NCBI RefSeq assembly: GCF_000510645.1
Contig: NZ_KI783301.1
Span: 1,556,705 to 1,620,704 of the forward strand
Source of the DNA: Thermicanus aegyptius DSM 12793
Lineage (GTDB): Bacteria > Bacillota > Bacilli > Thermicanales > Thermicanaceae
DNA length: 64,000 nucleotides
Direction: 5' to 3'
The notes beneath the pieces are model-generated. The model was not told where the DNA came from. It searched no databases and saw nothing but the letters and a program-made list of their open reading frames with translations. This document shows positions 30,571 through 45,057 of this stretch, piece after piece. The position numbers and the translations under genes were made by a program. Position 1 is the stretch's first letter. Every line of letters begins with the position of its first letter.

Positions 30571-31128
30571 TTATTTGGGTAGATTTTCTTTAAAACGTCG
30601 GAAGGCTTCTGAGAAATCGTACGAAGGCAAGTTTCTTTTTTTTAATTTCATTTGGTTCCAAATCTGATTTCCTTCAGTTTCCGTAATCATTCCTTTTGTT
30701 ACAGCCGAGCATAACACATCATCCGTTGAGATTAAGCCGAGTGAATATGTATTACAGTAGTTAAGAACATCTTTTAAATTATTACTTGCCACTGTTCCCT
30801 CAACCATTCTTGCCCTCGACATGACAGCTGCTTCCCCTTTGCCTATTCCACCACTTAGAAGTTTTAAATATTCTTTACCTTCGGGTGTACCAGGGTAGAT
30901 TTGGAAAACCGTGATGTTTTTCTTTTTAATTTCTTCTTCCAACAAAACCGAAACATGGCTATAATATGTAAAGCGTTTAAGAAAAGCTATTTCGTCAACA
31001 ACTACGTCAGGGACATAAATTTGCCCTTTATAAATTTCATACAGAATATCAAGTCTATTAATCCAAAGAAACGAGCTTATGAAATCGGTGTCACAAAGAT
31101 AAGGGGGGATTTGAGGAAGTTGCCTCAT
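30571..31128 (-). CDS. PIN-domain protein of an XRE-ImmA-PIN cassette
   Basis: A 185-residue protein with a PIN-like nuclease fold. An early Asp pair in LCDTDFISSF, VVVDEIAFL (Asp/Glu), GIGKGEAAVMSRAR (Glu) and LISTDDVL (Asp) occur in the order expected for the acidic metal-binding centre. If active it would be a metal-dependent RNase, perhaps a toxin or effector. Its ATG overlaps the stop of the ImmA-like gene by four bases, so it is translated with it. It is AT-rich compared with the flanking core genes. Confidence 0.7.
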   Translation of the reverse strand: MRQLPQIPPYLCDTDFISSFLWINRLDILYEIYKGQIYVPDVVVDEIAFLKRFTYYSHVSVLLEEEIKKKNITVFQIYPGTPEGKEYLKLLSGGIGKGEAAVMSRARMVEGTVASNNLKDVLNYCNTYSLGLISTDDVLCSAVTKGMITETEGNQIWNQMKLKKRNLPSYDFSEAFRRFKENLPK

Positions 31129-31886
31129 ATCAAATCCCCCTCTTCATGTTCATTTTCACTATATAATATATCGATCAGACCGGCTTCAAGCAGTAATTCC
31201 TCATATTTGCCCGATGATATTAGTCCTTTATCGAAGGCGATTTTTGCTTTTTCTGCATATTTAGATATAACGGCATAATCATTTGACTCTTGATATAGAG
31301 AAACATTATAACCAAGGGACCTAGCGTTTTTGATAACATTAGGTTTAAATACAGCTGCCTTTTCACTACTTAAACCCATTTGTTGTAATCTGACCAGCAT
31401 GGCTGTATGACTAATACCAAAGATCTGTTCAAGGTCGATTACATCTTTCAATGTAATGGTGGAATCATCTAATCTTTGTATACCTCGACGGTATAGATGA
31501 AAGTTAATTGCCTCATCAGGAGCGAGAAGATAAGATGCAAATAAATCAGCCTTGAATTCATTTGGTTCCCTAACGTCAAATCGACCTACAAAACAAACTC
31601 TACCTGATATATCAACATCGAATTTGATATGATAATACTCATGTGCGGCAGTAAAATTTTGATGCCCGATGCTGCGTTTTGTGTTAATAAATACCAATTC
31701 GGAGTGGCCGCGTTTCAGGAAAAATCCTGAAATATGACTGTCGATCGGTTCTTTTATGACATTTATATCTGCTTCTTTGAGCAGTTTAAAAACCTCAATA
31801 GGACTATAGGGGCTTATCCCATATTCTATTCTTGTTTCCAGTGCTTTTTTTTTACATATTTCGGCCCATTCATTCCATTTACTCAT
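31125..31886 (-). CDS. ImmA/IrrE family metallo-endopeptidase
   Basis: A 253-residue zinc protease family protein. FTAAHEYYHIKFD carries the HExxH active site (HEYYH), and an acidic residue in FKADLFASYLLAP is the likely third ligand. ImmA-type proteases cleave a partner XRE repressor to switch on mobile-element or stress genes, and here an XRE regulator is encoded directly upstream with a four-base overlap. The C-terminal 100 residues are helical and may sense the signal. The substrate is presumably the neighbouring XRE protein (inference). Confidence 0.88.
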   Translation of the reverse strand: MSKWNEWAEICKKKALETRIEYGISPYSPIEVFKLLKEADINVIKEPIDSHISGFFLKRGHSELVFINTKRSIGHQNFTAAHEYYHIKFDVDISGRVCFVGRFDVREPNEFKADLFASYLLAPDEAINFHLYRRGIQRLDDSTITLKDVIDLEQIFGISHTAMLVRLQQMGLSSEKAAVFKPNVIKNARSLGYNVSLYQESNDYAVISKYAEKAKIAFDKGLISSGKYEELLLEAGLIDILYSENEHEEGDLI

Positions 31887-32242
31887 CTTTTTGTTTCACC
31901 TTCCAGAAGCTCATCCAACCATTTCAAGTTGAATAAAAAACGTTGACAACGAGCCAACAGATCCAGATCTTTTTCAGATAAGCCTGTTGCGCGAAAAGCC
32001 ATGGCAACTGAATCGTGTTCTTCCGCCGTTTCCGATGCCGATAAAAAATACTCAGACGGATATCCGTAAAGATCAGCTAACTTAGATAATGAGAGAAGGT
32101 CAATTTCCCGTGATCCGGTTTCGAAATAGGAGATTTGTTCACGTGCAACACCTAAATATTTTCCCACTTGTAATTGCGTTAAACCATTTTCTTCCCGTGC
32201 CTTCTTTAATTTTCGTCCAATCTCCCTAAAAAGGTTTTCCAT
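31883..32242 (-). CDS. XRE-family transcriptional regulator
   Basis: A 119-residue DNA-binding protein with an N-terminal Cro/C1-type helix-turn-helix (residues about 8-62; GLTQLQVGKYLGVAREQISYFETGSR) and a helical C-terminal tail. It is the first gene of the minus-strand cassette and overlaps the ImmA-like protease gene by four bases. A perfect dyad operator lies 50-70 bases upstream in its promoter region, suggesting autorepression relieved by proteolysis. ATG 32242 follows AAAAGGAGCG. Confidence 0.9.
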   Translation of the reverse strand: MENLFREIGRKLKKAREENGLTQLQVGKYLGVAREQISYFETGSREIDLLSLSKLADLYGYPSEYFLSASETAEEHDSVAMAFRATGLSEKDLDLLARCQRFLFNLKWLDELLEGETKR

Positions 32243-32444: not shown

Positions 32445-32473
32445 TTGCAATGTGTAAAGAGCTCTGCTATACT
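32445..32473 (+). promoter_or_regulatory. Promoter of the yhf-like operon
   Basis: TTGCAA (32445-32450) and TATACT (32468-32473) are 17 bases apart, giving a transcription start near 32480, inside the palindromic operator. This is the only good sigma-A promoter I see before the operon. Confidence 0.75.
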
Positions 32474-32479
32474 ACAAAG

Positions 32480-32493
32480 TACAGGATCCTGTA
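32480..32493. promoter_or_regulatory. Palindromic operator, probable YhfZ site
   Basis: TACAGGATCCTGTA is a perfect 14-base palindrome just after the -10 box and 16 bases before the yhfZ start. A site here would block initiation, and its size fits a dimeric GntR-like regulator such as YhfZ, encoded immediately downstream. Confidence 0.6.
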
Positions 32494-32508
32494 TATTGGA
32501 GAGTGCAT

Positions 32509-33432
32509 ATGCAAAACGAAACTTTATTTTCACGTAATGGATTAGCAGTCAGGAACATAGCCCGTGAGCTTCTTGCGTGTGAAATCGGTTCGAGGATTCC
32601 TAGGGTTCAAGACTTCGCGGCCAAGTATGGAGTTGGGAGAGGAACCGTACAGTCCGCAATCCAACTTCTCACTGATTCCCGGGCAGTGGAACTTGATTCT
32701 CGAGGTCATCTGGGTACGTTCCTCCTGACAGCCGATTTTGCGAAATTGTGGGAATTCGCCGGCCGTTCCAATTTGATGGGGGCCATGCCTTTGCCGTATT
32801 CTCGACGAAACGAGGGATTGGCCACCGGGCTCTATGCGGTGTTCGAACAACAAAAAATCCCTTTTCACATGTCCTATATGCGTGGGGGTGCCAACCGTGT
32901 TAAGGCGTTAACCGAGGGCCGTTACGACTTTGTTGTTTTGTCCATGCGGGCTTCTCATCTGGCTGTCGAGGAGAATCATGTGGCAGTTTTACACGGCTTT
33001 GGTGCGCGTACTTACGTTGGTGCACACGGATTGCTTGTGCGCGATCCGAATATTCGCTCCGTAAAACCGGGGATGCGCTTCGGTATAGACTCGTCTTCGC
33101 TCGATCAATACACGTTAACCATGGAACTGTGCAAAGATATTGATGTTGAGTTTATTGAACTCCCTTACATGCAGATATTGGAACAGTTGTCCCAAGGAAA
33201 TATCGATGCGGCAGTTTGGAACATCGATGAGTTGGAAGAACGATTTGGGCAGCATGGACCGATTCACATCATCCCATTGGAGTTCAACGAGGACGACGCG
33301 ACGGAAGCCGCTTTGGTCGTTCGCCAAGAGGATCTAAAGATTTTCCAGAACCTTCTCAAGAAGGTCAATATGGAACAGGTGGTCGCAATTCAAAGGGATA
33401 TTCTCAATGGCGTACGGGTTCCCCGCTATTGA
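32509..33432 (+). CDS. yhfZ: YhfZ family GntR-like regulator with periplasmic-binding-like sensor domain
   Basis: A 307-residue regulator. Residues about 1-75 form a winged helix-turn-helix of GntR type (IGSRIPRVQDFAAKYGVGRGTVQSAIQLL). The rest (about 90-300) resembles a type 2 solute-binding fold (GGANRVKALTEGRYDFVVLS, MRFGIDSSSLDQYT, LSQGNIDAAVWNIDELEE), which would bind the inducer. E. coli YhfZ has the same architecture. ATG 32509 follows GGAGAG; GTG 32503 is in frame. It heads the operon next to a palindrome and is probably its autoregulator. Confidence 0.85.
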   Translation: MQNETLFSRNGLAVRNIARELLACEIGSRIPRVQDFAAKYGVGRGTVQSAIQLLTDSRAVELDSRGHLGTFLLTADFAKLWEFAGRSNLMGAMPLPYSRRNEGLATGLYAVFEQQKIPFHMSYMRGGANRVKALTEGRYDFVVLSMRASHLAVEENHVAVLHGFGARTYVGAHGLLVRDPNIRSVKPGMRFGIDSSSLDQYTLTMELCKDIDVEFIELPYMQILEQLSQGNIDAAVWNIDELEERFGQHGPIHIIPLEFNEDDATEAALVVRQEDLKIFQNLLKKVNMEQVVAIQRDILNGVRVPRY

Positions 33433-33451
33433 GACGACAGGGGGTGGTATC

Positions 33452-33805
33452 ATGAACGAGGCTTTGAATGAACGACTTGAGATTTTAGAAACCTCCCATC
33501 AGATTACTCCTCCTATTCGGGAACACGTTAAGCGATTTGTGGAGTGGTTTGAAAATACCTACCAGATTCCTCTCGGTGAAGAAAATGCAGGAGCGTTTGT
33601 TACACACTTTGCCGTCGCGTGCGCCAGACTGCAACGTGGGGAACCGGTAACGGAGATCCCTGAGAGTATTGCGGAAATCGTTTCCCGGCATCCGGAAGTA
33701 TACCAACAGGCACTCGGAATGTTTGAAGGGATTGCGGACAACGCCACTGAGGCAGAAATAGGCTTTCTCACCATGTACCTATGCCTGTTATTAGGAAAGG
33801 AGTAA
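33452..33805 (+). CDS. yhfY: YhfY-like single PRD-domain protein
   Basis: A 117-residue protein consisting of one PTS regulation domain (PRD). His52 in FVTHFAVACARL matches the first phospho-acceptor His of PRDs. The second conserved His is replaced by Tyr (EIGFLTMYLCLLL), so only one site could be phosphorylated. PRDs are modified by HPr-P or EIIB-P, and an HPr paralogue is encoded in the same operon. It has no DNA-binding domain and may act by protein contact, perhaps with YhfZ. ATG 33452 follows GGGGGTGG. Confidence 0.75.
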   Translation: MNEALNERLEILETSHQITPPIREHVKRFVEWFENTYQIPLGEENAGAFVTHFAVACARLQRGEPVTEIPESIAEIVSRHPEVYQQALGMFEGIADNATEAEIGFLTMYLCLLLGKE

Positions 33806-33811
33806 TAAGCG

Positions 33812-34186
33812 ATGACGATTCGGATTATGATTGGCGGTCTCAAGAAAGAGGTGATGGAACGGGCCGTTCGTCAGGCTGGCGGCAACAAGGTAGAGGTAAC
33901 GGTGACTTCTGATTTCGAAGCTGCAAAAAAAATTAAAGCAGGACAAGCGGATTACTATTTTGGAGCTTGCAACAGCGGAGGGGGTGCTGCCTTATCCGTT
34001 CCGATCGGAATACTGGGCTATGGGAATTGTGCAACGGTAGCCAAAGCAGGGGGACGTCCGAAAGCGGAAGAAATCGAAAAGCTCGTTCACGAGAACAAGA
34101 TCGCGTTTGGCATGGCTGTGGAAGCGATTGAAGAAGCTGTACCCATTTTGGTAAGGTGCTTGTTAAAAAAACATGGTTTAGAATAG
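33812..34186 (+). CDS. yhfU: YhfU-like protein (DUF2620)
   Basis: A small 124-residue cytoplasmic protein beginning with a beta-alpha unit (TIRIMIGGLKKEVMERAV). It continues with EVTVTSDFEAAKKIKAGQADYYF in two parts, a cysteine-glycine motif GACNSGGGAALS, and GILGYGNCATVAKAGG. The family is DUF2620, represented by YhfU in E. coli; function is unknown. Its size, Rossmann-like start and constant place next to the membrane protein YhfT suggest it serves the transporter. AAAGGAG precedes ATG 33812. Confidence 0.8.
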   Translation: MTIRIMIGGLKKEVMERAVRQAGGNKVEVTVTSDFEAAKKIKAGQADYYFGACNSGGGAALSVPIGILGYGNCATVAKAGGRPKAEEIEKLVHENKIAFGMAVEAIEEAVPILVRCLLKKHGLE

Positions 34187-34198
34187 GGGGGATGTGGT

Positions 34199-35554
34199 AT
34201 GGTGTTGAAACTTATTATCGTAGGCGTCCTTTGTGCCTTGACATCATTGGCGTCACACACAGGGCGAGCCGTGTTCCACGATGGGGTTCGACCGATTATG
34301 CCGGAGTATGTTGAAGGGAGAATGAGACGTGGAGAGATGGCATCCATCGCCTTTGGTTTGAGCGCCGGATTCGTATTTTCGGTTGGATTCGCATTTACCC
34401 TTGCATCGAAACTTTTAAATCCGTGGTTGCTCTTTTTGCCGACAGATATCCTTGGCGTTCTTGCTCCGAACAAGTGGATTGCTATCCTTTTCGGGGGAGC
34501 ATGGGGGATCGCTGTAACCGTTGCGTTTGATGCACTCAACGTCTTTTTCGGTCTGTTGCCCATCAATTTCTTAAACGCTTTGGGTGCACTCTCTTCTCCC
34601 GTCGTTGCGGGTTTTGCATTGTTCCCTGTTCTAGCGGTTTTCTACCAGTTTGGCAAAGTGAAAGGTATTATTACACTTGTTCTTGAATTAATCTTCCGTC
34701 AATTGGCCGCCACCAAAATTCTCACCGTGGGTGGGACGGCGATTTATCCGGAAGCGTTGGAAATGTTCGTCGGTGTAATCCTCCTTGTTGGGTTTGCGAT
34801 TGCCAAGGATGTGAAGGAAAATAAGACGAGAGAAAAAAGCGAAGGTTCCGGCGAAAGCATATTTGCAGTTCGTACTAAGCGCATTATGTCGTCCATTCCT
34901 TTGTTGGCGGTAATTGGTGGTTTGGTGGCTTTGATTAGCAACATGCAATATTTTGCGGGCTCCGAAGTTGACTTCCAAGCTCTTCACACTGCCTACCAAT
35001 CGACCGCATACCAGTCGGGAGACATGAGTCAAATTGGAACGATTGCGTTTGCCGACATGATTCGGGGCCTGGCCTTTATCCCCCTGATTGTGACAACGGC
35101 GTTGGCTTCGGGGGTTTACGGGGTAGTCGGGCTAACCTTCGTCTATCCCATCGGATATTATGTTGCCCCTGTTTTGTTCGGAAACGGTGTGGCAGGTCAC
35201 ATCGCCGCGTTCGTTCTTGGAGCCGTCTGGATAAGCCTCGAGATGTTGGCCCTTCGGGCTATTGGGAAAGGACTTGAGAACTTTCCGTCATTGCGTGAAG
35301 CATCGGACAGTATCCGCAATGCGATGAACAACGTGTTGGAGATCGCTTTGCTCATCGGTTCGGCATTAGCCGCCCTGGGAATGACCCACTCACCTCAAGA
35401 TCCGCAAAACTTCTTTGCTTTCGCAGTATTCGGAGCGTTGTATTTGATTAACGAGGCCCTTGGCCGCCCCGTCATTCGGTTGGCCGCCGCCCCTCTCGCA
35501 GCCATTATAACCGGTGTTGTCGTCAACATTTTCTATGTCTTGAACTTATTGTGA
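34199..35554 (+). CDS. yhfT: YhfT-like polytopic membrane transporter
   Basis: A 451-residue integral membrane protein with roughly ten to twelve hydrophobic segments spread over the chain, e.g. about 3-18, 48-68, 90-112, 130-150, 180-200, 240-256, 290-325, 340-360, 385-400 and 410-450. The loop LINFLNALGALSSPVVAGF-like region (about 120-140) and repeated glycine-rich helices resemble EIIC-like or secondary carriers. It is the family of E. coli YhfT, a putative transporter of unknown substrate. It lies 12 bases after yhfU and is probably the uptake protein of this operon. Confidence 0.8.
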   Translation: MVLKLIIVGVLCALTSLASHTGRAVFHDGVRPIMPEYVEGRMRRGEMASIAFGLSAGFVFSVGFAFTLASKLLNPWLLFLPTDILGVLAPNKWIAILFGGAWGIAVTVAFDALNVFFGLLPINFLNALGALSSPVVAGFALFPVLAVFYQFGKVKGIITLVLELIFRQLAATKILTVGGTAIYPEALEMFVGVILLVGFAIAKDVKENKTREKSEGSGESIFAVRTKRIMSSIPLLAVIGGLVALISNMQYFAGSEVDFQALHTAYQSTAYQSGDMSQIGTIAFADMIRGLAFIPLIVTTALASGVYGVVGLTFVYPIGYYVAPVLFGNGVAGHIAAFVLGAVWISLEMLALRAIGKGLENFPSLREASDSIRNAMNNVLEIALLIGSALAALGMTHSPQDPQNFFAFAVFGALYLINEALGRPVIRLAAAPLAAIITGVVVNIFYVLNLL

Positions 35555-35584
35555 CCTGACTTCCACTGCAAAAAAAACGGAACA

Positions 35585-35621
35585 CCCATGGTAGGATGGG
35601 CCTTGCCCATCCTACATGGGT
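35585..35621 (+). promoter_or_regulatory. Long intercistronic hairpin between yhfT and php
   Basis: GTAGGATGGGC (35591-35601) pairs perfectly with GCCCATCCTAC (35605-35615) around a three-base loop. The stem extends through CCCAT/ATGGG past one bulged G, giving about 17 pairs. No run of T follows (TTGTTTAATG), so it is more likely an RNA stabiliser, processing site or weak attenuator than a full terminator. It lies 21-67 bases upstream of the php start. Confidence 0.7.
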
Positions 35622-35641
35622 TGTTTAATGGGGTGAATCGT

Positions 35642-36556
35642 ATGGGATTGATCAGAACCGTACTCGGCGATGTGAAACCGGAATCCTTGCAAGCAACCAT
35701 GATCCACGAACACATCGCATTTGATTTGTCTCACGTTCGCAATGAATCGGATTCAATTCTTGGAGATACTCCGGAATTGGCGAACGAGCTTCTTCTTACG
35801 AAGGATTATGGGTGCAACGCGTTCGTGGAAGTAACGAACCGTGGGATGGGGCGGGACGTTCAGGCGTTGGCTGAATTGGCAAAGAGACTTGATATTTACA
35901 TCATATGTGCAACCGGTTTTTATAAGGAAAATGTTTATCCCGTCGAGGCGTTTGAAAAGTCCAGAGAAGAGCTGGCGGAACTGTTCGTATCCGAGATTAC
36001 CGCCGGAATTGACGGAACTCACATCAAGGCAGGGATCATCGCCGAGATTGGGAGCAGTTATCAGGAACTGACGAAAACGGAAGAGAAGGTGTTTCGAGCT
36101 GCTTGTGATGCCCATAAAAAAACAGGCGCACCGCTCAGCACACACTGTGAATTAGGCACGATGGGAATCGCGCAACTGCGGATATTCGAGTCTGAAGAAG
36201 TTGATTTTCGCCATATCTCGTTTGGTCATCAGGATCTCAACCGAAATATCGATGAACAAGTAACGTTGTTAAAAAGTGGAGCTTTTATCCAATTCGACAC
36301 CGTCGGCAAGAACAAGTATCGTCCTCACGACGAGCGTGTATCGAACTTGTTGGCCTTACTTGATAAAGGCTTTGAGGATCAACTGATGTTATCTGTCGAT
36401 CTTACGAGGAAATCCTATTTTCGCCAGAATAACGGTCCAGGTTATGTATATCTGTTTGATACGTTTCTACCGGATTTGCGGAACGCAGGTGTGCCGGATA
36501 GGGTCATCGAGAAAATGCTTATTGAAAATCCACGTCGTTTCCTGACGTTCGCCTAA
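35642..36556 (+). CDS. php: Phosphotriesterase homology protein (Php), amidohydrolase superfamily
   Basis: A 304-residue binuclear metal hydrolase. Metal ligands are visible in MIHEHIAFD (HxH), IIAEIGSS (Glu in place of the carboxylated Lys of true phosphotriesterases, as in E. coli PHP), STHCELG (His), ISFGHQDLN (His) and LSVDLTRK (Asp). Relatives hydrolyse lactones or phosphotriesters; the substrate of PHP is not known. It belongs to the same set of eight genes as in the E. coli yhf operon. ATG 35642 follows GGGGTG; an in-frame ATG at 35588 lies in the hairpin. Confidence 0.85.
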   Translation: MGLIRTVLGDVKPESLQATMIHEHIAFDLSHVRNESDSILGDTPELANELLLTKDYGCNAFVEVTNRGMGRDVQALAELAKRLDIYIICATGFYKENVYPVEAFEKSREELAELFVSEITAGIDGTHIKAGIIAEIGSSYQELTKTEEKVFRAACDAHKKTGAPLSTHCELGTMGIAQLRIFESEEVDFRHISFGHQDLNRNIDEQVTLLKSGAFIQFDTVGKNKYRPHDERVSNLLALLDKGFEDQLMLSVDLTRKSYFRQNNGPGYVYLFDTFLPDLRNAGVPDRVIEKMLIENPRRFLTFA

Positions 36557-36566
36557 GGTGATCAGA

Positions 36567-37664
36567 ATGAAGTTCTACCCATTGGAACCCATTTCTCTGG
36601 ACGATGCAAAGGAAGTGCAGTTTCGGTTTGTCCGGGCAATTGCCGATGTTTTTTCCGGTTCGGAATTTTTTCAGATGGGGGATGTGGGAGTCCCCCCGTC
36701 CGGAGCCCCTCTTAGGACACGGAAGGTAGAGAGGGTCTTAGCCAAGTTCTTTGGTGTTGAAGATTGTGCGTTGGTTCGCGGAGCCGGGACGGGGGCGATT
36801 CGATTGTCCCTGGCGGCGTATCTCGAAGCTGGTGAGACGGTGATTATCCACGATGCGCCTGTCTATCCTACCACTAAAGAGACATTTCGAATGTTGGGTC
36901 TAAAGACCTATATCGTCGATTTCCACGATGAAAAAGCCCTCTCGGATGCCGTACACCACGGCAAGCTGCTTTATATTCAGCACACGCGCCAAAAACCGGA
37001 TGATCACTACGACTTAGGGAGAGTCATCGCTATCGCCAAACGCGTTCGTCCGGAGCTTCCGATCGTGGTGGATGAAAACTATGCCGTCTTTAAGACAAGA
37101 CATATCGGAGTGCAAGTGGGCGCGGATGTGTCTACCTTCTCCGCCTTCAAACTGCTGGGACCCGAAGGGATTGGCGTCGTTTTGGGAAGCAAGGACTGCA
37201 TTGAGCGGATCCATGAGAGGAACTATTCCGGTGGAGGACAGGTTCAAGGCCCTGAGGCGATGGAAGTGTTGCGGGCATTCACCATCGCACCGGTCCTGAT
37301 TGCTGTCCAATCGGAACAGGTATCCCTCCTCGCAGACCTGTTAAATGCCGGATCTGTTCCGGGGATCCGCGAGGCTTACATTGCCAATGCCCAGTCCAGG
37401 ACCGTCATCGCTCGCCTCGATGAACCTATTGCTCCCCAGGTGATTGCAGCCTGTGAAGCATTTGGCGCAGCACCCTATCCTGTTGGGGCGGAGTCAAAAT
37501 ATGAGGTTCTTCCCATGATCTATCGCGCTTCCGGAACGGTTTTAGAAAGTGAGCCGGCATTGAAACCCTATTTGTTACGGATTAATCCGATGAGAGCCGG
37601 TGCCCGGCTCGTTGTGGACATCCTAAATAAGGCGTTGGCGAAGGTACGATCCGATCATGACTAA
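36567..37664 (+). CDS. yhfS: YhfS-like PLP-dependent aminotransferase/lyase family protein
   Basis: A 365-residue fold-type I PLP enzyme. It shows DCALVRGAGTGAIRLSLAA near residue 74, IVVDENYAVF (the Asp that contacts the PLP nitrogen) and FSAFKLLGPEGIG with the probable PLP lysine. GGGQVQGPEAMEVLRAF follows. It is related to YhfS of E. coli and to cystathionine-lyase-like and threonine-aldolase-like enzymes; whether it transaminates or eliminates is open. ATG 36567 follows AAGGTGAT; GTG 36558 is in frame. It overlaps the next gene by eight bases. Confidence 0.82.
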   Translation: MKFYPLEPISLDDAKEVQFRFVRAIADVFSGSEFFQMGDVGVPPSGAPLRTRKVERVLAKFFGVEDCALVRGAGTGAIRLSLAAYLEAGETVIIHDAPVYPTTKETFRMLGLKTYIVDFHDEKALSDAVHHGKLLYIQHTRQKPDDHYDLGRVIAIAKRVRPELPIVVDENYAVFKTRHIGVQVGADVSTFSAFKLLGPEGIGVVLGSKDCIERIHERNYSGGGQVQGPEAMEVLRAFTIAPVLIAVQSEQVSLLADLLNAGSVPGIREAYIANAQSRTVIARLDEPIAPQVIAACEAFGAAPYPVGAESKYEVLPMIYRASGTVLESEPALKPYLLRINPMRAGARLVVDILNKALAKVRSDHD

Positions 37665-38700
37665 GATGGAATGGATGGAACGGTTCGCCTACGCCTACGC
37701 TAACGCCTATCGGTACACCGATTCTATCGTCTGGGTTAACCCGACAGCTCCCACGAGCGCTAGGAAAAAACTGGAGCAGCATATGGAGCTTATTTTATTC
37801 GGTGTGAAGGATACCGATCAAATACCGATGAATGCAGTCCGGCAGCTCATCGAGGCACCCGACTTCGTATGGATGACCGTGGACCGAATGGCTCCGTATG
37901 GGAGGGCAATGGATCCGGGATTGACGAATCCGTTGACCGGCCGCCTCATGACCGGTTCCTCAAGCGGTAGCGCCCTCAATATTTTACGTGGAATTCATGA
38001 TCTCGCCATCGTTACGGACGGAGGCGGATCAATCTTAGGCCCGGCGCTTGCCACTCAGTTATATGGGATCAACGCCAAGGGAATGGGGTTAACCGGGCTG
38101 CACCCGTCTCGTTCCACCGACGGATTTTCCCTGGAAGTGGGGATTGGAGTTATCAGTCACTCATTCGCCTTTGCGAAGAGTGGTATCGAAACGCTGTTGT
38201 GTCGAACCCTGGACGATCATGTAGAAGGACTGTATATTGCACTGGACCGTGCGGCGCCGGATAATGTAGAGGACCTATTGCGTCAGTACGGATGTACGAT
38301 TCGCCGATTTGATAAAGGGGATTCGTATGAGAGAACTCGTGGGCTTTCTCTGATGAATGAACTTTTCAATGAAAACCAAGTGATTATCAGCATGGAAGGC
38401 CCCGTAGATGTAAAAGAGTATGCAGACTCTTTGGTCATGGACGGACGTCCGGACGGGCTGGGTGGAAAGTTTCTTCTGCGCAGCGCGAACCTGGCAAATA
38501 CGACGTCCGTGGCCGTCCCGGGGAATAAGGCCGCATCGGGATTTATCGTCATTGCGCCAAGTGGCGTAGAATCGGGTAATCATGCGATCGCAGTGGCCGG
38601 CCTGCTGGCGAAACACTATCCACGATCCGCGCTATTTGAGGATTACTTCCTTCGACGCATGCGTTACGGGCAGACTGGTTTTTTTCATGAAGGGATGTGA
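37657..38700 (+). CDS. Compact amidase-signature family protein
   Basis: A 347-residue protein with the amidase-signature catalytic set: Lys51 in FGVKDTD, cis-Ser Ser101 in TGSSSGSAL and nucleophile Ser125 in TDGGGSILGPA. The 24-residue spacing between the two serines equals that of GatA and FAAH. The chain is about 100 residues shorter than usual, including the region between Lys and the first Ser (50 instead of about 75). It should hydrolyse an amide. I know of no counterpart in the E. coli yhf operon. It overlaps yhfS by eight bases. Confidence 0.75.
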   Translation: MTKMEWMERFAYAYANAYRYTDSIVWVNPTAPTSARKKLEQHMELILFGVKDTDQIPMNAVRQLIEAPDFVWMTVDRMAPYGRAMDPGLTNPLTGRLMTGSSSGSALNILRGIHDLAIVTDGGGSILGPALATQLYGINAKGMGLTGLHPSRSTDGFSLEVGIGVISHSFAFAKSGIETLLCRTLDDHVEGLYIALDRAAPDNVEDLLRQYGCTIRRFDKGDSYERTRGLSLMNELFNENQVIISMEGPVDVKEYADSLVMDGRPDGLGGKFLLRSANLANTTSVAVPGNKAASGFIVIAPSGVESGNHAIAVAGLLAKHYPRSALFEDYFLRRMRYGQTGFFHEGM

Positions 38701-38704
38701 CATC

Positions 38705-39856
38705 ATGTTTCTCGCTCAATTGCTCACTAGAAATGAAACGTTTATCGATCGTGCGCTTCAACTCTACAAGTCCGGATTCATCCCCCCCAATTCCTATGTT
38801 TTAGATGTGGACCAAATCCAACGGAACACCGAGTCCATCGTACAAACCGCAAAAAAAGAGAGAATTAATCTTTACTTCATGACCAAGCAATTCGGTCGGA
38901 ATCCGGTTGTTTATCAATCCATCGTGTCGGCAGGTATAAAAAAGGCCGTTGCGGTTGATCCGGTGGAAGCCCTAACCTTGGCGCAAAATGGGGTGGAATT
39001 GGGACATGTGGGGCATCTTGTGCAAATCCCCCGATATTACATGGAGCCAATTCTCCGGTGGCGTCCGGAAGTGGTCACAGTTTTTAGTATCGATGCGGCG
39101 AGGGAGGTCTCCCGGGTGGCTTCCGACCTTGGCTACGAGCAGGATCTTCTGTTGCGTGTCGTACGGCCGGATGACTATTTGTACGACGCACAAGAAGGGG
39201 GGATACCGCTTAACGATTTGGAGGAAGTGGTTCAGACCATATCGGCACTTCCCAATGTGCGTGTGGTGGGAGTCACCTCTTTTCCGTGCGTCATTGTGCA
39301 GGATGGTGTCCCCACGTTCACCAACAACCTTAAAACACTTCAGTTGGCTAAAGAGCGACTTCAGGAATTGGGGGTTGAATTGAAGCAGGTGAACGCACCA
39401 AGCGTCACTTGTGTGGCAACCCTTCCCATGTTGCGAGCCGCGGGCGTCACTCATGGGGAACCGGGGCATGCTTTGACGGGGTCCACCCCTTTGCATGCGT
39501 TACCCGGGCAGGTGGAAGTGCCGTCCTACCTCTACATTACCGAAGTCTCCCACTACTTCAACGGTTATAGTTATGTTTATGGAGGCGGGTATTATGCCCG
39601 TGGACATATTCAACATGCGCTTGTGGGAGGTTCCTTGACAACGGCGGAACATGTTGAGGTAGCTCCTCTCCATGCGGAAAGCATCGACTACTACTTGAAA
39701 ATTGCCGGTAAATTTCCAGCAGGAACACCCGTGATCCTCGCTTTTCGAACGCAGATGTTCGTAACCCGAGCTAACGTGGTTCCTGTAACGGGAGTTCATG
39801 AGGGGCGACTTAAGGTTGCCGGAATTTATAATGTTGAAGGGAAGCGAATCGGATGA
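38705..39856 (+). CDS. yhfX: YhfX-like alanine-racemase-fold PLP protein
   Basis: A 383-residue fold-type III PLP enzyme related to alanine and amino-acid racemases. SYVLDVDQIQRNTESIV and LYFMTKQFGRNP (probable PLP lysine) lie near residues 22-62. VAVDPVEALTLAQNG and HVGHLVQIP follow, with GVTHGEPGHALTGSTPLHA and a C-terminal beta domain (GGGYYARGHIQHALVGG) later. It corresponds to E. coli YhfX; the substrate is unknown. ATG 38705 starts five bases after the amidase stop, and the stop overlaps yhfW by four bases. Confidence 0.85.
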   Translation: MFLAQLLTRNETFIDRALQLYKSGFIPPNSYVLDVDQIQRNTESIVQTAKKERINLYFMTKQFGRNPVVYQSIVSAGIKKAVAVDPVEALTLAQNGVELGHVGHLVQIPRYYMEPILRWRPEVVTVFSIDAAREVSRVASDLGYEQDLLLRVVRPDDYLYDAQEGGIPLNDLEEVVQTISALPNVRVVGVTSFPCVIVQDGVPTFTNNLKTLQLAKERLQELGVELKQVNAPSVTCVATLPMLRAAGVTHGEPGHALTGSTPLHALPGQVEVPSYLYITEVSHYFNGYSYVYGGGYYARGHIQHALVGGSLTTAEHVEVAPLHAESIDYYLKIAGKFPAGTPVILAFRTQMFVTRANVVPVTGVHEGRLKVAGIYNVEGKRIG

Positions 39857-41043
39857 AACGAGCAGTCCTGTGTGTTCTTGATGGATTCGGTGCGGGGGCG
39901 ATGGAAGATGTTTCCGCTGTCCGTCCGCAAGATAGAAATGCGAATACGATGCGGCATGTCATTGAACAAACAAGTGTAAAGATACCCTTCCTTAGTCGGT
40001 TAGGGCTCCCCCATATCCTTAACGATCCTTCGTTATTAGCGCTTACTCCCCCTCTGGCGAGTTATGGCAAATGCAATCTATATCATTACGGGGCGGACAG
40101 TTATACCGGTCATAACGAAATCATGGGAGCAAAACCGATTATGCCAAAAACACAGTTTATCCGTGAATTGGCGCCGCTGATTGAAAAACGGCTGGTGGAA
40201 AGAGGGTTCAAAGTAGAATATCCGGTTGCAGGTACCGGCATTCTGCTCGTCGACAACGAGGTTGTCATCGCCGACAATATGGAAAATGACCCGGGGCAGA
40301 TCATCAACATTACAGGAGCATTGGATACGACCCCGTTTGAAAAGATCTTTGAGATTGGGAAAATTGTACGGACCATCGCCGAAACCAGCCGCGTCATTCC
40401 TTTGGGAGGGACCGGCATTACCGTAAGTGATATTCTCTTGAACATTGTGATAAAACCGGAGCGGACCGGTGTGGATATGGGACGTCTAAATATATACAAC
40501 GAGAACTATCAAGTTCGGCATCTAGGTTTTGGAATTGATCCCGACAAACAAATACATTCCATCCTCATGAAGCAAGGATTGGAAGTATATCTGTATGGGA
40601 AGATGGCGGATGTGATCACGGGAGAGGTGATGGAACGAAATCCCATGGTCAACAGCCAGGGCGTGATGGACCTAATCTGTAATCGATTGGAGAATATGAA
40701 GAGCGGATTTATCTCCGCTACCATTCAGGAAACGGATTTAGCCGGTCATGAGCAGAACCCGGAAAAGTTCGCGGCGGTCTTGGAAATTGCGGACGCAGGT
40801 TTACGCCGTATTTACGATATGCTTCATCCCGGAGAGCTCCTGATCGTAACCGCCGATCATGGCAATGACCCGACCATAGGCACAAGCCAGCATACCCGGG
40901 AAACAACCCCGCTTCTCGTCTGTGTAAAGGGATCTCCGGCGCGGGAACTGGGGCTACGCACCACACTCGCCGATGTTGCGGCCACAATAGCGGATTACTT
41001 TGGGGTGAGCGCACCGGAATTTGGGACTTCCGTGTTGTCGTAA
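39853..41043 (+). CDS. yhfW: YhfW-like phosphopentomutase-family metalloenzyme
   Basis: A 396-residue alkaline-phosphatase-superfamily protein of the phosphopentomutase type. Metal and catalytic motifs are AVLCVLDGFGAGAME (Asp), GADSYTGHNEIMG (Thr nucleophile), ETDLAGHEQNP, VTADHGNDP and SQHTRETTPLL. The full set suggests an active phosphomutase or phosphatase. E. coli YhfW is of the same family with unknown substrate; a sugar or amino-sugar phosphate is plausible given the NagB-like and HAD genes downstream. Confidence 0.85.
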   Translation: MKRAVLCVLDGFGAGAMEDVSAVRPQDRNANTMRHVIEQTSVKIPFLSRLGLPHILNDPSLLALTPPLASYGKCNLYHYGADSYTGHNEIMGAKPIMPKTQFIRELAPLIEKRLVERGFKVEYPVAGTGILLVDNEVVIADNMENDPGQIINITGALDTTPFEKIFEIGKIVRTIAETSRVIPLGGTGITVSDILLNIVIKPERTGVDMGRLNIYNENYQVRHLGFGIDPDKQIHSILMKQGLEVYLYGKMADVITGEVMERNPMVNSQGVMDLICNRLENMKSGFISATIQETDLAGHEQNPEKFAAVLEIADAGLRRIYDMLHPGELLIVTADHGNDPTIGTSQHTRETTPLLVCVKGSPARELGLRTTLADVAATIADYFGVSAPEFGTSVLS

Positions 41044-41080
41044 TCCCTTTTAAATGCTTCGTAAGGATAGGTGACGAATT

Positions 41081-41338
41081 ATGTACGAAAAAAAAGCAAT
41101 TGTTAACTTAAACCAAGGGCTGCACGCACGCCCTGCCACTGAGTTTATCCAAAAGGTACGTCAATTTGGAAGCAAAGTATTTGTGATCAAAGAAGGAAAA
41201 GCTGTGGATGCCGGAAGCATTCTAGGGTTGATGTCGATGGCTGTCGTTAAGGGAACCGAAGTTACCATTCGGGCCGAAGGGGCGGACGAAGTGGAAGCGG
41301 TAGAGACTCTTTGTAAATTTCTTACGCAGACGGAGTGA
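41081..41338 (+). CDS. HPr-like phosphocarrier protein
   Basis: An 85-residue HPr paralogue. His15 in GLHARPATEF is the EI phosphorylation site and Ser46 in AGSILGLMSMAV is the HPr-kinase site, so both regulatory residues are kept (unlike Crh, which lacks His15). No EI or EII gene is adjacent, so it is not a normal ptsH locus. Likely roles are phosphorylation of the PRD protein YhfY or carbon-catabolite signalling through CcpA. AAGGATAGGTG precedes ATG 41081. Confidence 0.9.
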   Translation: MYEKKAIVNLNQGLHARPATEFIQKVRQFGSKVFVIKEGKAVDAGSILGLMSMAVVKGTEVTIRAEGADEVEAVETLCKFLTQTE

Positions 41339-41414
41339 GATAAGTTATCACAAAATTCTTCAATGACAACGTGAAACCATTCTTGGGTCAATGGAAGAGA
41401 GGAGGGATGGCAAA

Positions 41415-42164
41415 GTGAAGATTCGAATCTTCAACAGCCCCCATGACGCGGGCATCTATGTTGCTGCATTAGCGGAACAGATCATTGAAAGTCGAAGGAA
41501 ACCTGTTTTGGGACTTGCCACTGGGTCTACGCCGATTCCTTTTTACGAGGCATTGGTTCATCTGCATCAGTGTGGTCTCGACTTATCACGGGTAACGACC
41601 ATCAACTTGGATGAGTATATCGGATTAGATTCTTCCCATCCTCAAAGTTATTCGTGGTTTATGTGGAAACATCTCTTTTCCCATGTAAACATACCAAAAG
41701 AGAATATATATCTGCCAAACGGGGTAGCAACCGATTTGGAAGCGGAATGCCGCAGATACGACGAAATCATCCATTCTCATCCGATTCACCTTCAGATCCT
41801 TGGGATTGGCGTTAATGGGCACATTGGTTTCAATGAACCGGATGACACCTTACTTTCCGGAACGCACATTGTTGAATTGCGCCCGGAGACCGTAATGAGC
41901 AACGCGAGATTTTTCAACGACATTGGAGAGGTGCCAAAGCGTGCGATTACTATGGGGGTTCAGGCCATATTACAAGCCGATAAAATCGTGTTGATGGCAT
42001 TTGGGCGCGAGAAAGCGAAGATCATCGCTAAATCCGTCTACGGTGAGGTTCGTACGGACGTTCCTGCGAGCATCCTCAACTTGCACAAAGACGTGACCGT
42101 GGTACTTGATCGCGACAGTGCCGGTGAGTTGTTGGACGAAAGCGGCCGGTTGCGGACGAAATAA
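41415..42164 (+). CDS. Glucosamine-6-phosphate deaminase-like isomerase
   Basis: A 249-residue NagB-family sugar-phosphate isomerase/deaminase. LGLATGSTPIPFYEAL (phosphate loop), TTINLDEYIGL (catalytic Asp), GIGVNGHIGFNEP (His relay) and KRAITMGVQAIL are all intact, so it probably converts glucosamine-6-phosphate, or a close amino-sugar phosphate, to the ketose phosphate and ammonia. GTG 41415 was chosen for the product start MKIRIFNSP and the GGAGGG upstream. It gives a direct hint that the operon handles an amino sugar. Confidence 0.87.
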   Translation: MKIRIFNSPHDAGIYVAALAEQIIESRRKPVLGLATGSTPIPFYEALVHLHQCGLDLSRVTTINLDEYIGLDSSHPQSYSWFMWKHLFSHVNIPKENIYLPNGVATDLEAECRRYDEIIHSHPIHLQILGIGVNGHIGFNEPDDTLLSGTHIVELRPETVMSNARFFNDIGEVPKRAITMGVQAILQADKIVLMAFGREKAKIIAKSVYGEVRTDVPASILNLHKDVTVVLDRDSAGELLDESGRLRTK

Positions 42165-42224
42165 CCGAAATGGCCCGAAGTTGGGTGTAAAAAGCCCAAT
42201 TAGAAAGAAAAAAGGGGAAATGCC

Positions 42225-43034
42225 ATGATTCGTATGTTCTTTTTTGATATCGACGGAACTCTCATCGTTCCAAAAAAAGGTGAGGTTTCGGAACGCGTTC
42301 GCCGTGCCATCTTCATGCTCCATGAACGAGGCATTGTTCCCATCCTAGTATCCGGCAGGCCCCTCTTCTCCATGATTCCGCTCGCCGAATCTCTTTCCAT
42401 CAGGGGGTGTATCGCTTATAACGGAGGACTGGTTGTTGTCGATGGAGAGGTGGTGTATGACAACCCCATAGACGAAAGCAGGGTAGAACAGCTGGTTTCC
42501 TTTGCAAATTCTAATATGCATCCACTCATATTTCCTGGAATGGACGGTTATTACGCAACGACGCTGGATCATCCGAAGGTACGGGAAATTTTTCAATATA
42601 CTACCACACTCAACCATTCCTATTGGAAACATTATACTCCCAAACTAAACCCATCGTATTGGAAAACCCATCCTATCTATCAAATGGAACTGATCGCGCC
42701 GATGGAAGAACTAACCCTATACCAGGAACGTTTTGGACAAGAATTTCAGTTTTATCCATGGCATGTAGCCTCGTCCGCGGCGAACATAAATCCTCTCGCC
42801 AACTCCAAAGCGATTGGAATGCACCATGTGTTAAAACGGTTTTCACTAGATGAATCCGTTGCGGCCGCCATCGGCGACGGACCGAATGATATCGAGATGA
42901 TCCGCTCCGCACATCTCGGCATCGCCATGGGAAATGCTTGTAAAGAGCTTAAGTCTGCGGCGGATCTCGTTGCAGAAGATGTTACTGCGGACGGGGCCGC
43001 CAAGGCGATTGAAATGTTGTTGGAGAGCGGGTAA
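42225..43034 (+). CDS. Cof-type HAD-IIB phosphatase
   Basis: A 269-residue HAD hydrolase. Motif I is FFDIDGTLI (nucleophile and acid/base Asp), motif II is ILVSGRPL, and motifs III/IV lie in AAIGDGPNDIEMIRSA and GIAMGNACKELK. The C2-type cap (about residues 80-190) holds a short internal duplication, LNHSYWKHYTPK / LNPSYWKTHPIY at about 126-149. Cof-type enzymes dephosphorylate sugar phosphates and related compounds. It follows the NagB-like gene with its own AAAGGGG ribosome binding site. Confidence 0.88.
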   Translation: MIRMFFFDIDGTLIVPKKGEVSERVRRAIFMLHERGIVPILVSGRPLFSMIPLAESLSIRGCIAYNGGLVVVDGEVVYDNPIDESRVEQLVSFANSNMHPLIFPGMDGYYATTLDHPKVREIFQYTTTLNHSYWKHYTPKLNPSYWKTHPIYQMELIAPMEELTLYQERFGQEFQFYPWHVASSAANINPLANSKAIGMHHVLKRFSLDESVAAAIGDGPNDIEMIRSAHLGIAMGNACKELKSAADLVAEDVTADGAAKAIEMLLESG

Positions 43035-43089
43035 GGGAATGCTAGCGGTTTCGATAGAAGAGAACGTCTGAAAGAAAGGAGAGTTGAAG

Positions 43090-44316
43090 ATGAAAATGAG
43101 GATCAAAATACCAATTCGGGTGAAACTGGTCGGTTTTATTTTATTCGTCGCCTTTTTATTCGGCATTACAAACGGTATTTCATCCTATTCCATAGGAGCC
43201 TTTATTGTAACGATTTTGATCGGTCTCGTCATTTCCCGGAAGATCACAAAACCGATTGCGTCTATGACGAAATTTGCGGAACAAATTGCAACAGGGAATT
43301 TAACTGCGGAGGAGATCAGAGTAAAAAACCGCGATGAAATTGGAGATCTTGCGAATTCGTTCAATAAGATGACCACAAACTTTCGCAGTCTAATCCATCA
43401 GATCAAAACCAGTGCGGAACAGATCGCCGCGTCATCAGAGGAATTGACAGCCAGCGCCGAACAAACCAGCAAAGCGACCGAACAAATTGTTTCGACCATG
43501 CAAGAAGTGGCGATGGGTTCCGAGAATCAAGTCCGCAGTGTAAGTGACGGCATAAGTGCGATTTATGAAGTCTCCACCACCGTGCAACAAATTGCTGACA
43601 ATGCAGAAAGTGTCTCTGCTGCTGCGATTCAAGCTTCGGAAACAGCATCCGCAGGAAATCTTGCCATTCGGACGACGATCAAGCAGATGAATTCCATTAG
43701 TACTACGGTGAATGAGCTGGCCGAGGCGGTGAAAAGATTGGGTAAAAGTTCCCAAGAAATCGAACAGATTGTAGATGTGATTGCAAGTATTGCCGCACAG
43801 ACCAATCTATTGGCTTTAAACGCTACGATCGAGGCCGCCAGAGCCGGGGAGCACGGACGTGGATTTTCTGTAGTCGCTGAGGAAGTTCGCAAATTGGCCG
43901 AGCAATCGGCTCGATCAGCACAAAAAATTGCAGAACTGATTAACTCGATCCAATATGAAACGAATCATGTGGTTCAATCGATGGAGACCACGACAAAAGA
44001 GGTGTCTGATGGGATTAAAGTTGTCAACAAAGTAGGTGAATCGTTTGAAGAAATTCAGCGCTCGGTAAATAACGTAGTGGCGCAGGCGCAAGATGTATCA
44101 GCCGCCACAAAGCAAATTTCTACGGGAACAGATCGAGTAGTCCATTCGATTAACCAAATTGCCAGCGTGGCAGGGGCAACCGCATCCGGAACCCAAAACG
44201 TAGCGGCGGGCACCGAAGAACAGTTGGCATCGATGGAGGAAATCTCATCGTCTGCCGCTTTCCTCTCAAAAATGGCGGAGGAATTTCTGGCGCTTGTGGG
44301 CAAATTTAAGGTGTGA
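43090..44316 (+). CDS. Methyl-accepting chemotaxis protein with almost no extracellular domain
   Basis: A 408-residue chemoreceptor. Two membrane segments at about 13-30 and 34-49 are joined by only a few residues (NGISSYS), so the usual outer ligand domain is missing. A HAMP domain (RKITKPI to about residue 105) and the signalling domain follow, with [21 protein letters not shown] at its tip. There is no C-terminal pentapeptide for CheR. It may sense the membrane state, an internal signal, or a transporter such as YhfT. ATG 43090 follows AAGGAGAG. It is the last gene of the accessory operon. Confidence 0.88.
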
Positions 44317-44934: not shown

Positions 44935-45057
44935 CTCTTATCCAGAGAGGCTGAGGGACTGGCCCAATGACGCCCGGCAACCGGTTTTAAGCGGAAAGGC
45001 TTAAAAACGCGGTGCCAATTCCTGCAGAGCTTTAAAAGCTCTGAGAGATAAGATGAG
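44935..45057 (+). ncRNA. SAM-I (S-box) riboswitch
   Basis: Binds S-adenosylmethionine and turns off the methionine genes downstream. The P1 arms CTCTTATC and GATAAGATGAG, the conserved AGAGAGGCTGAGGGA-CTGGCCC block, ATGACGCCCGGCAACC and the GGTGCCAATTCC segment are all present in order. Confidence 0.96.

Follow-up and report, generated by a model that had tools for sequence, protein, structure and literature searches.

Escherichia coli carries a yhf operon of eight conserved genes, arranged yhfZ-yhfY-yhfX-yhfW-php-yhfU-yhfT-yhfS, and structures have been solved for several of the products (PHP, YhfS, and YhfX). The literature searched, from which subscription papers were largely missing, yielded no functional work on the yhf genes; an N-104 peptide resistance screen names yhfZ, with no mechanism given (PMC12147183). 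Here, we analyze an expanded yhf operon in a 64,000-nucleotide stretch of the Thermicanus aegyptius DSM 12793 genome (contig NZ_KI783301.1, positions 1,556,705 to 1,620,704), hereafter called the window. The host genome is a single 3.66-Mb contig and encodes a germination protease, which marks the organism as a spore former. All eight E. coli families are present in the window, at 29-47% identity and in a different order, and they are joined by genes for an amidase-like protein that we name AmiX, HPr, the glucosamine-6-phosphate deaminase NagB, a Cof-type HAD phosphatase, and a chemoreceptor-like protein. The E. coli unit, in contrast, has no amiX, HPr, nagB, or HAD gene and no copy of the operator present in Firmicutes loci.

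The expanded yhf cluster is real and coherent, not a chance assembly. Other lineages also have four of its five added genes next to yhf, and a putative, conserved YhfZ operator, new in this analysis, lies over the operon start. The locus is a variant of a known, uncharacterized operon, with a testable regulon and a phosphotransfer link; it does not represent a new category of system. Regarding function, we propose, at roughly even confidence, a YhfZ-repressed uptake and breakdown of an amino-sugar conjugate that is linked to the phosphotransferase system (PTS) and ends at fructose-6-phosphate through NagB.

Thirteen plus-strand open reading frames (ORFs) span 32503-44316 in the order yhfZ, yhfY, yhfU, yhfT, php, yhfS, amiX, yhfX, yhfW, HPr, nagB, Cof-type HAD, chemoreceptor. 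A promoter and a palindromic operator precede them, so the whole element occupies 32445-44316. The original prediction, made from the sequence alone, had placed eight yhf homologs plus five added genes here; its gene list and coordinates are correct, and family searches back every assignment. The features are as follows.

32445..32473, plus strand: sigma-70-type promoter, TTGCAA-17-TATACT with an extended -10 TG, located by consensus scan just 5' of the operator
32478..32498, no strand assigned: putative YhfZ operator AGTACAGGATCCTGTATATTG, located by motif score, with core palindrome TACAGGATCCTGTA at 32480-32493
32509..33432, plus strand: yhfZ, regulator with a GntR-like helix-turn-helix and YhfZ_C (ATG at 32509; GTG at 32503 is an alternative start)
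33452..33805, plus strand: yhfY, free-standing PRD domain with invariant His52 (PF00874)
33812..34186, plus strand: yhfU (DUF2620), predicted RpiB/LacAB-like fold, invariant Cys53 (PF10941, 145 bits)
34199..35554, plus strand: yhfT, polytopic membrane protein, presumed transporter (PF10797, 453 bits)
35585..35620, plus strand: conserved hairpin in the yhfT-php spacer, core GTAGGATGGGC-CTT-GCCCATCCTAC
35642..36556, plus strand: php, phosphotriesterase-like metal hydrolase (PF02126, 276 bits)
36567..37664, plus strand: yhfS, fold-type-I pyridoxal 5'-phosphate (PLP) enzyme, SAFK lysine kept (PF22475; 4j8l, E 8e-98)
37657..38700, plus strand: amiX, compact amidase-signature-like protein, triad K51-S101-S125
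38705..39856, plus strand: yhfX, alanine-racemase-like fold-type-III PLP enzyme (PF21279, PF01168; 4kbx, E 1.5e-98)
39853..41043, plus strand: yhfW, phosphopentomutase-like phosphomutase (NF009049, 473 bits versus 254)
41081..41338, plus strand: HPr with His15 and Ser46, identified by alignment (PF00381, 96 bits)
41391..42164, plus strand: nagB, glucosamine-6-phosphate deaminase (TIGR00502; GTG at 41415 is an alternative start)
42225..43034, plus strand: Cof-type HAD-IIB phosphatase (TIGR00099, 152 bits versus 137; PF08282)
43090..44316, plus strand: chemoreceptor-like protein with a membrane segment, HAMP, and an MCP signal domain (TTG at 43084 is an alternative start)

The YhfZ, YhfT, DUF2620, YhfS, YhfX, and YhfW families co-occur here, all above their cut-offs or with E below 1e-40. 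YhfZ scores 355 bits against NF041241 (cut-off 260) and also matches PF14503 and PF14502, and the PRD domain of YhfY scores 38.7 bits against a cut-off of 23. By inspection, the metal-ligand motifs of Php (HEH, Glu, two His, Asp) are all present; the nearest solved structures are those of E. coli PHP (1bf6/4lef, E 8e-72), and the PRK09875 equivalog score is 287 bits where the cut-off is 486. YhfW falls below the DeoB equivalog TIGR01696 (144 versus a cut-off of 341) and instead matches the PRK12383/YhfW family; alignment to 3m8w shows that the phosphorylated, catalytic Thr (SYTGH) and the metal motifs DHGNDP and HTRE are retained. The operon NagB, the second NagB of the host genome, scores 272.6 against a TIGR00502 cut-off of 236.9, and its active-site motifs ATGSTP, NLDEY, and NGHIGFNEP are present.

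The tight spacing that had been described is borne out: yhfS and amiX overlap by 8 bp, a 4-bp gap separates amiX from yhfX, and yhfX and yhfW overlap by 4 bp. After yhfW, the spacers before the HPr, nagB, HAD, and chemoreceptor genes widen to 37-60 bp, and these short spacers hold no clear terminator. One strong, conserved hairpin, in the yhfT-php gap, interrupts the run of genes. The next gene downstream has its own S-adenosylmethionine riboswitch (44935-45054) and belongs to an unrelated unit; thus, the yhf unit ends before it.

The closest relatives of the operon lie in Alicyclobacillus shizuokensis, A. macrosporangiidus, and A. fastidiosus, which share the yhfZ-yhfY-yhfU-yhfT-php-yhfS-amiX-yhfX-yhfW order, the operator, and the spacer hairpin, with proteins 55-90% identical to those of the window. 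In A. shizuokensis and A. macrosporangiidus, HPr likewise follows yhfW. Unlike the window, these same two operons encode Enzyme I (EI), that of A. macrosporangiidus also contains a DUF7916 gene, the HAD gene of A. fastidiosus is divergent, and no chemoreceptor is present.

Recurrence of the added genes was measured across an even draw of 399 genomes from the class. Twenty-three have yhfT above cut-off, one of them as merely a 43-codon stretch, and the neighborhood survey covers 22 yhfT-positive loci (21 fetched plus the window). Loci with the gene at most three positions from the yhf core number 5 of the 22 for nagB, 6 for HAD, 5 for HPr, and 5 for intact amiX, with one further amiX remnant. 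HPr lies 3' of yhfW in four loci besides the window. Outside the class, nagB is directly 3' of yhfW in a Candidatus Fermentithermobacillus and two Eubacteriales (L052-L054), loci that came from a scan for amiX and are consequently uninformative about amiX frequency; in the class to which L053 belongs, a survey found yhfT in that locus alone. We estimate that chance would supply about 0.06 nagB neighbors over 33 loci (1 gene in ~3,500, with six flanking positions per locus). Hypothesis-blind, all-against-all clustering of flanking genes ranked PRD/YhfY first, followed by nagB (7), HAD (5), major facilitator superfamily transporters (4; a generic family), HPr (4), and EI (2). On the NagB tree, the yhf label must change at least three times, which rules out a single origin of yhf-linked NagB and argues for repeated recruitment. 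As evidence of function, genes recruited independently and repeatedly count for more than a cluster inherited once.

These results bear on the original prediction of a single pathway, which would fail if the amidase-like, HPr, NagB, and HAD genes never recurred with yhf elsewhere. They do recur, and for these four additions the idea stands. It does not extend to the fifth, the chemoreceptor, which is found beside yhf in the window alone (1 of 22), at no other locus among those surveyed, and which has no ligand domain recognizable in family searches. The suggested role in taxis thus loses its footing, we have dropped the gene as a pathway member, and it is probably an adjacent bystander.

The second line of evidence is the operator. 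A near-palindrome with consensus AATACAATATACTGTATATTG lies upstream of yhfZ in nearly every Firmicutes yhf locus, between the -10 box and the start codon. In the window, it covers the expected +1, 5' of the yhfZ start. Its leave-one-out motif score of 21.3 is the highest in the window; 1 of 10 shuffled windows reached 20.9, so the score by itself is no proof, but the position repeats across genomes. The motif also precedes amiX in L037, L056, L057, and L058, and it lies before a divergent HAD gene, or between yhfZ and that gene, in L044, L046, L047, L048, and L051. Its placement in these relatives ties amiX and HAD to one regulon. A second site occurs between yhfZ and yhfY in many loci, and the one locus without yhfZ (L036) is missing the operator as well. 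Site placement and this joint absence suggest that YhfZ is the protein that binds. The arrangement is not universal, given that the E. coli, Vibrio, and Cetobacterium yhf loci do not have the motif. Within the host genome, the window operator is the sole good match, which leaves no further candidate YhfZ targets there; the next best site, at 1439446 with two mismatches, adjoins a LacI-type regulator. At L057 (4467-13102), the yhf operon is split into two operator-led halves, yhfZ-php-yhfS-yhfW-yhfX and amiX-yhfY-yhfU-yhfT.

The link to the PTS is stronger than had been supposed, with two Alicyclobacillus yhf operons also carrying Enzyme I. Specifically, the EI gene sits 3' of HPr in A. shizuokensis and A. 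macrosporangiidus, each of which encodes another EI outside the operon. Identity between the two yhf-linked EIs is 42%, yet one of them reaches 62% with the non-yhf EI of the other species, and so the two were recruited separately. The window HPr has His15 and Ser46. In YhfY, whose best match is LicT (E 3e-13), His52 is the only invariant histidine (19 of 19) and aligns to the phospho-histidines of the LicT PRDs. YhfY is consequently read as a lone PRD module with a conserved phospho-acceptor, which we predict to be phosphorylated, and a phospho-donor and a phospho-acceptor would be encoded in one operon. Two further HPr-like paralogs in the host genome, at 3084947 (L059) and 2333015 (L062), are Crh-like and have no phospho-acceptor His.

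The host genome also harbors a PTS-linked amino-sugar locus, near 3277458 (L065), where its other nagB stands with DUF7916, Enzyme IIA (EIIA), and Cof-HAD genes. Like the yhf unit, it groups NagB, a Cof-HAD, and PTS proteins; unlike it, it has a recognizable EIIA and contains no yhf gene. A DUF7916 gene is also found in the L045 yhf operon, between yhfW and HPr, and this pairing suggests that DUF7916 belongs to amino-sugar PTS metabolism.

AmiX had been called an amidase-signature protein. The family match is weaker than that implied: in the window, it amounts to one 44-residue stretch at 26.2 bits, just below the Pfam Amidase cut-off of 27. The L052 ortholog scores 43.0 bits, above cut-off, and the best structural matches of the family profile are amidase-signature proteins (GatA, malonamidase). 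The catalytic triad is complete, Lys51-Ser101-Ser125 (Lys, cis-Ser, Ser), and invariant in 13 of 13 relatives, one of them from Fusobacteriota. AmiX shares this triad and its 24-residue Ser-Ser spacing with GatA, malonamidase, and FAAH. It differs in having 347 residues, a match limited to the core motif, and a Lys-to-Ser distance of 50; in the amidase signature family, this distance is ~75. From these sequence features, AmiX is a compact, amidase-signature-like enzyme that accompanies yhf. Indeed, a scan of 84,980 species genomes placed all 10 of 10 amiX loci within yhf operons, L058 as a fragment only, and amiX was found in a Cetobacterium yhf operon as well. Decayed copies are present in two loci, L044 and L058; in L044 (6600-7000), amiX is internally deleted with both ends retained, in an otherwise intact operon.

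The YhfU model (predicted local distance difference test, pLDDT, 95.6) points to the RpiB/LacAB sugar-phosphate-isomerase fold. Its top 23 structural matches are all RpiB/LacAB proteins (Z 13.7-9.3; next 7.6), and Cys53, invariant in 23 of 23 sequences, aligns to the RpiB catalytic Cys (CGTGIG, after the third strand; single-comparison hhalign E 5e-4). DUF2620 is thus predicted to be a relative in fold only: it resembles RpiB/LacAB in this fold and in the position of the catalytic Cys, while it is shorter, has neither the Asp-His nor the ring-opening His, and gives no match to Pfam LacAB_rpiB (PF02502). The yhfT gene is directly 3' of yhfU in every locus seen.

The pathway that we propose draws on the observed gene content, recurrence, operator conservation and placement, and catalytic residues, together with the predicted YhfU fold. 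From these we infer YhfZ-operator binding, every chemical step and the order of steps, HPr-to-YhfY transfer, and the class of substrate. YhfZ would bind the palindrome over the transcription start and be lifted once an intermediate builds up. YhfT, working as a unit with YhfY and YhfU, would import the substrate, most likely an amino sugar conjugated to an amino- or acyl-type group. HPr, charged by the housekeeping EI in this host and by the operon EI in two relatives, would phosphorylate the PRD histidine of YhfY and so couple the pathway to the PTS. AmiX would cleave an ester or amide bond and Php another bond of the ester, lactone, or phosphoester kind, and the PLP enzymes YhfS and YhfX would process the amino-acid part. 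YhfW would move phosphate, and YhfU would act on the sugar phosphate. NagB would then release ammonia and yield fructose-6-phosphate, with the Cof-HAD clearing phosphorylated side products. In genomes whose operon has no nagB or HPr, housekeeping copies would serve. The YhfW and NagB steps are chemically credible because the phosphomutase Thr and metal motifs and the NagB active-site motifs are kept; family membership suggests the remaining steps.

Several observations weigh against this proposal. Seventeen of the 22 yhf operons, and that of E. coli, are without nagB, HPr, and amiX, so these genes are not obligatory members and housekeeping copies would have to stand in. Given that YhfU has neither the Asp-His nor the ring-opening His of RpiB, it may not isomerize, and its reaction may differ. 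YhfT has yielded no assignable transporter fold; its model has a pLDDT of 72 and no significant fold match. EI is present in 22 of 22 yhfT genomes versus 349 of 399 overall, weak support from which we do not argue for EI dependence. Finally, the window cannot be counted as an independent case, because the HPr, EI, and HAD of its clade share ancestry with those of the Alicyclobacillus operons.

Other explanations share much of this evidence. That the genes after yhfW are chance neighbors of a yhf core acting alone fits their 37-60-bp spacers, the lower GC content at third codon positions of the HPr and chemoreceptor genes, and the failure of the chemoreceptor to recur. Yet nagB, HAD, and HPr recur repeatedly and independently with yhf, and HAD sits under the same operator in relatives. 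For nagB and HAD, recurrence refutes the idea, which is possible for the chemoreceptor and highly improbable for the set. A regulatory role for the PTS proteins, in which YhfY reads the state of the PTS and modulates YhfZ or YhfT in a pathway that is not PTS-driven, deserves more weight, although we consider it on the unlikely side. YhfY is a PRD module with no DNA- or RNA-binding part, PRDs are regulatory in known proteins (LicT), yhfY is directly 3' of yhfZ in most loci, and HPr retains Ser46, the HPr kinase site. Such a switch leaves the two arrivals of Enzyme I unexplained, and in L057 yhfY resides in the transporter unit rather than with the regulator.

A bolder alternative makes YhfY-YhfU-YhfT itself a PTS-like permease that phosphorylates its sugar via EI and HPr, with His52 of YhfY serving as EIIA, Cys53 of YhfU as EIIB, and YhfT as EIIC. 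The comparison is invited by the make-up of the trio, in which two small proteins, one helical with a His and one alpha/beta with a Cys, accompany a membrane protein of ~430 residues and the catalytic-type residues are invariant, and also by the recruitment of HPr and EI into the operon more than once and by the L057 amiX-yhfY-yhfU-yhfT unit, which is operator-led without yhfZ. However, the EIIB role suspected from the invariant Cys does not survive the fold comparison: YhfU is far nearer RpiB/LacAB (Z 13.7 versus 7.2 and 6.9 for EIIB), and its Cys follows a different strand. YhfT shows no significant EIIC resemblance in a model that is too poor to carry it, and in E. coli yhfY lies apart from yhfUT. 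Such a permease is unlikely, and its fuller version, an undescribed class with a PRD as EIIA and an RpiB-fold Cys protein as EIIB that feeds the amino-sugar pathway, is very unlikely. If true, it would supply a function for the orphan E. coli operon and extend the Enzyme II repertoire with a non-canonical type. We regard as similarly doubtful the notion that the substrate is a muropeptide-like cell-wall compound of amino sugar and D-amino acid, freed by a secreted serine hydrolase, opened at its amide by AmiX, and divided between YhfX for the D-amino acid and NagB for the sugar. The NagB link and the alanine-racemase-like YhfX accord with it. A gene for a secreted PBP4B/YfeW-type protein with a beta-lactamase fold lies 13 bp after yhfW in L030 (16960-18552), and another such gene, in L037 (4917-6200), diverges from amiX across a shared operator region. 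Against this, the hydrolase is present in only 2 of 33 loci, with an NCBIfam score of 322 below the cut-off of 385, and MurQ, NagZ, and NagA are absent from yhf operons.

The PTS-linked amino-sugar pathway is thus the reading that we retain, and an amino-sugar phosphate as end product, as the original prediction supposed, is plausible given the recurrence of the NagB, HAD, HPr, and amidase-like genes and the operator before amiX and HAD. For the yhf operon at large, the genes added in Firmicutes and Fusobacteria limit what it might do: the pathway probably ends at an amino-sugar phosphate or fructose-6-phosphate, HPr would take part in phosphate transfer, and an amide is probably hydrolyzed. 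The conserved operator and the predicted DUF2620 fold offer concrete handles on yhf function.

The operon may have reached this host from elsewhere. YhfU is 90% and YhfT 87% identical to the A. shizuokensis proteins, whereas EI, the only housekeeping protein compared, is 48% identical, and yhfT is absent from the five sampled genomes of the host's order. Together, these comparisons suggest horizontal acquisition, on thin evidence.

The yhfT-php hairpin (z -3.6) has an invariant core, AGGATGG/CCATCCT, and is present in 6 of 6 loci of the window-Alicyclobacillus clade, with three covarying pairs. It is found at a single locus in the host genome and has no Rfam match. Judging from these six sequences, it may set the ratio of transporter to enzymes or be a protein site.

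Just 5' of the operon, the minus strand of the window (30571-32242) encodes an XRE regulator, an ImmA/IrrE-type peptidase, and a 185-residue ORF that may specify a PIN-type protein and has no Pfam match. This set adjoins a tRNA Pro-Leu-Val cluster and resembles a small accessory module.

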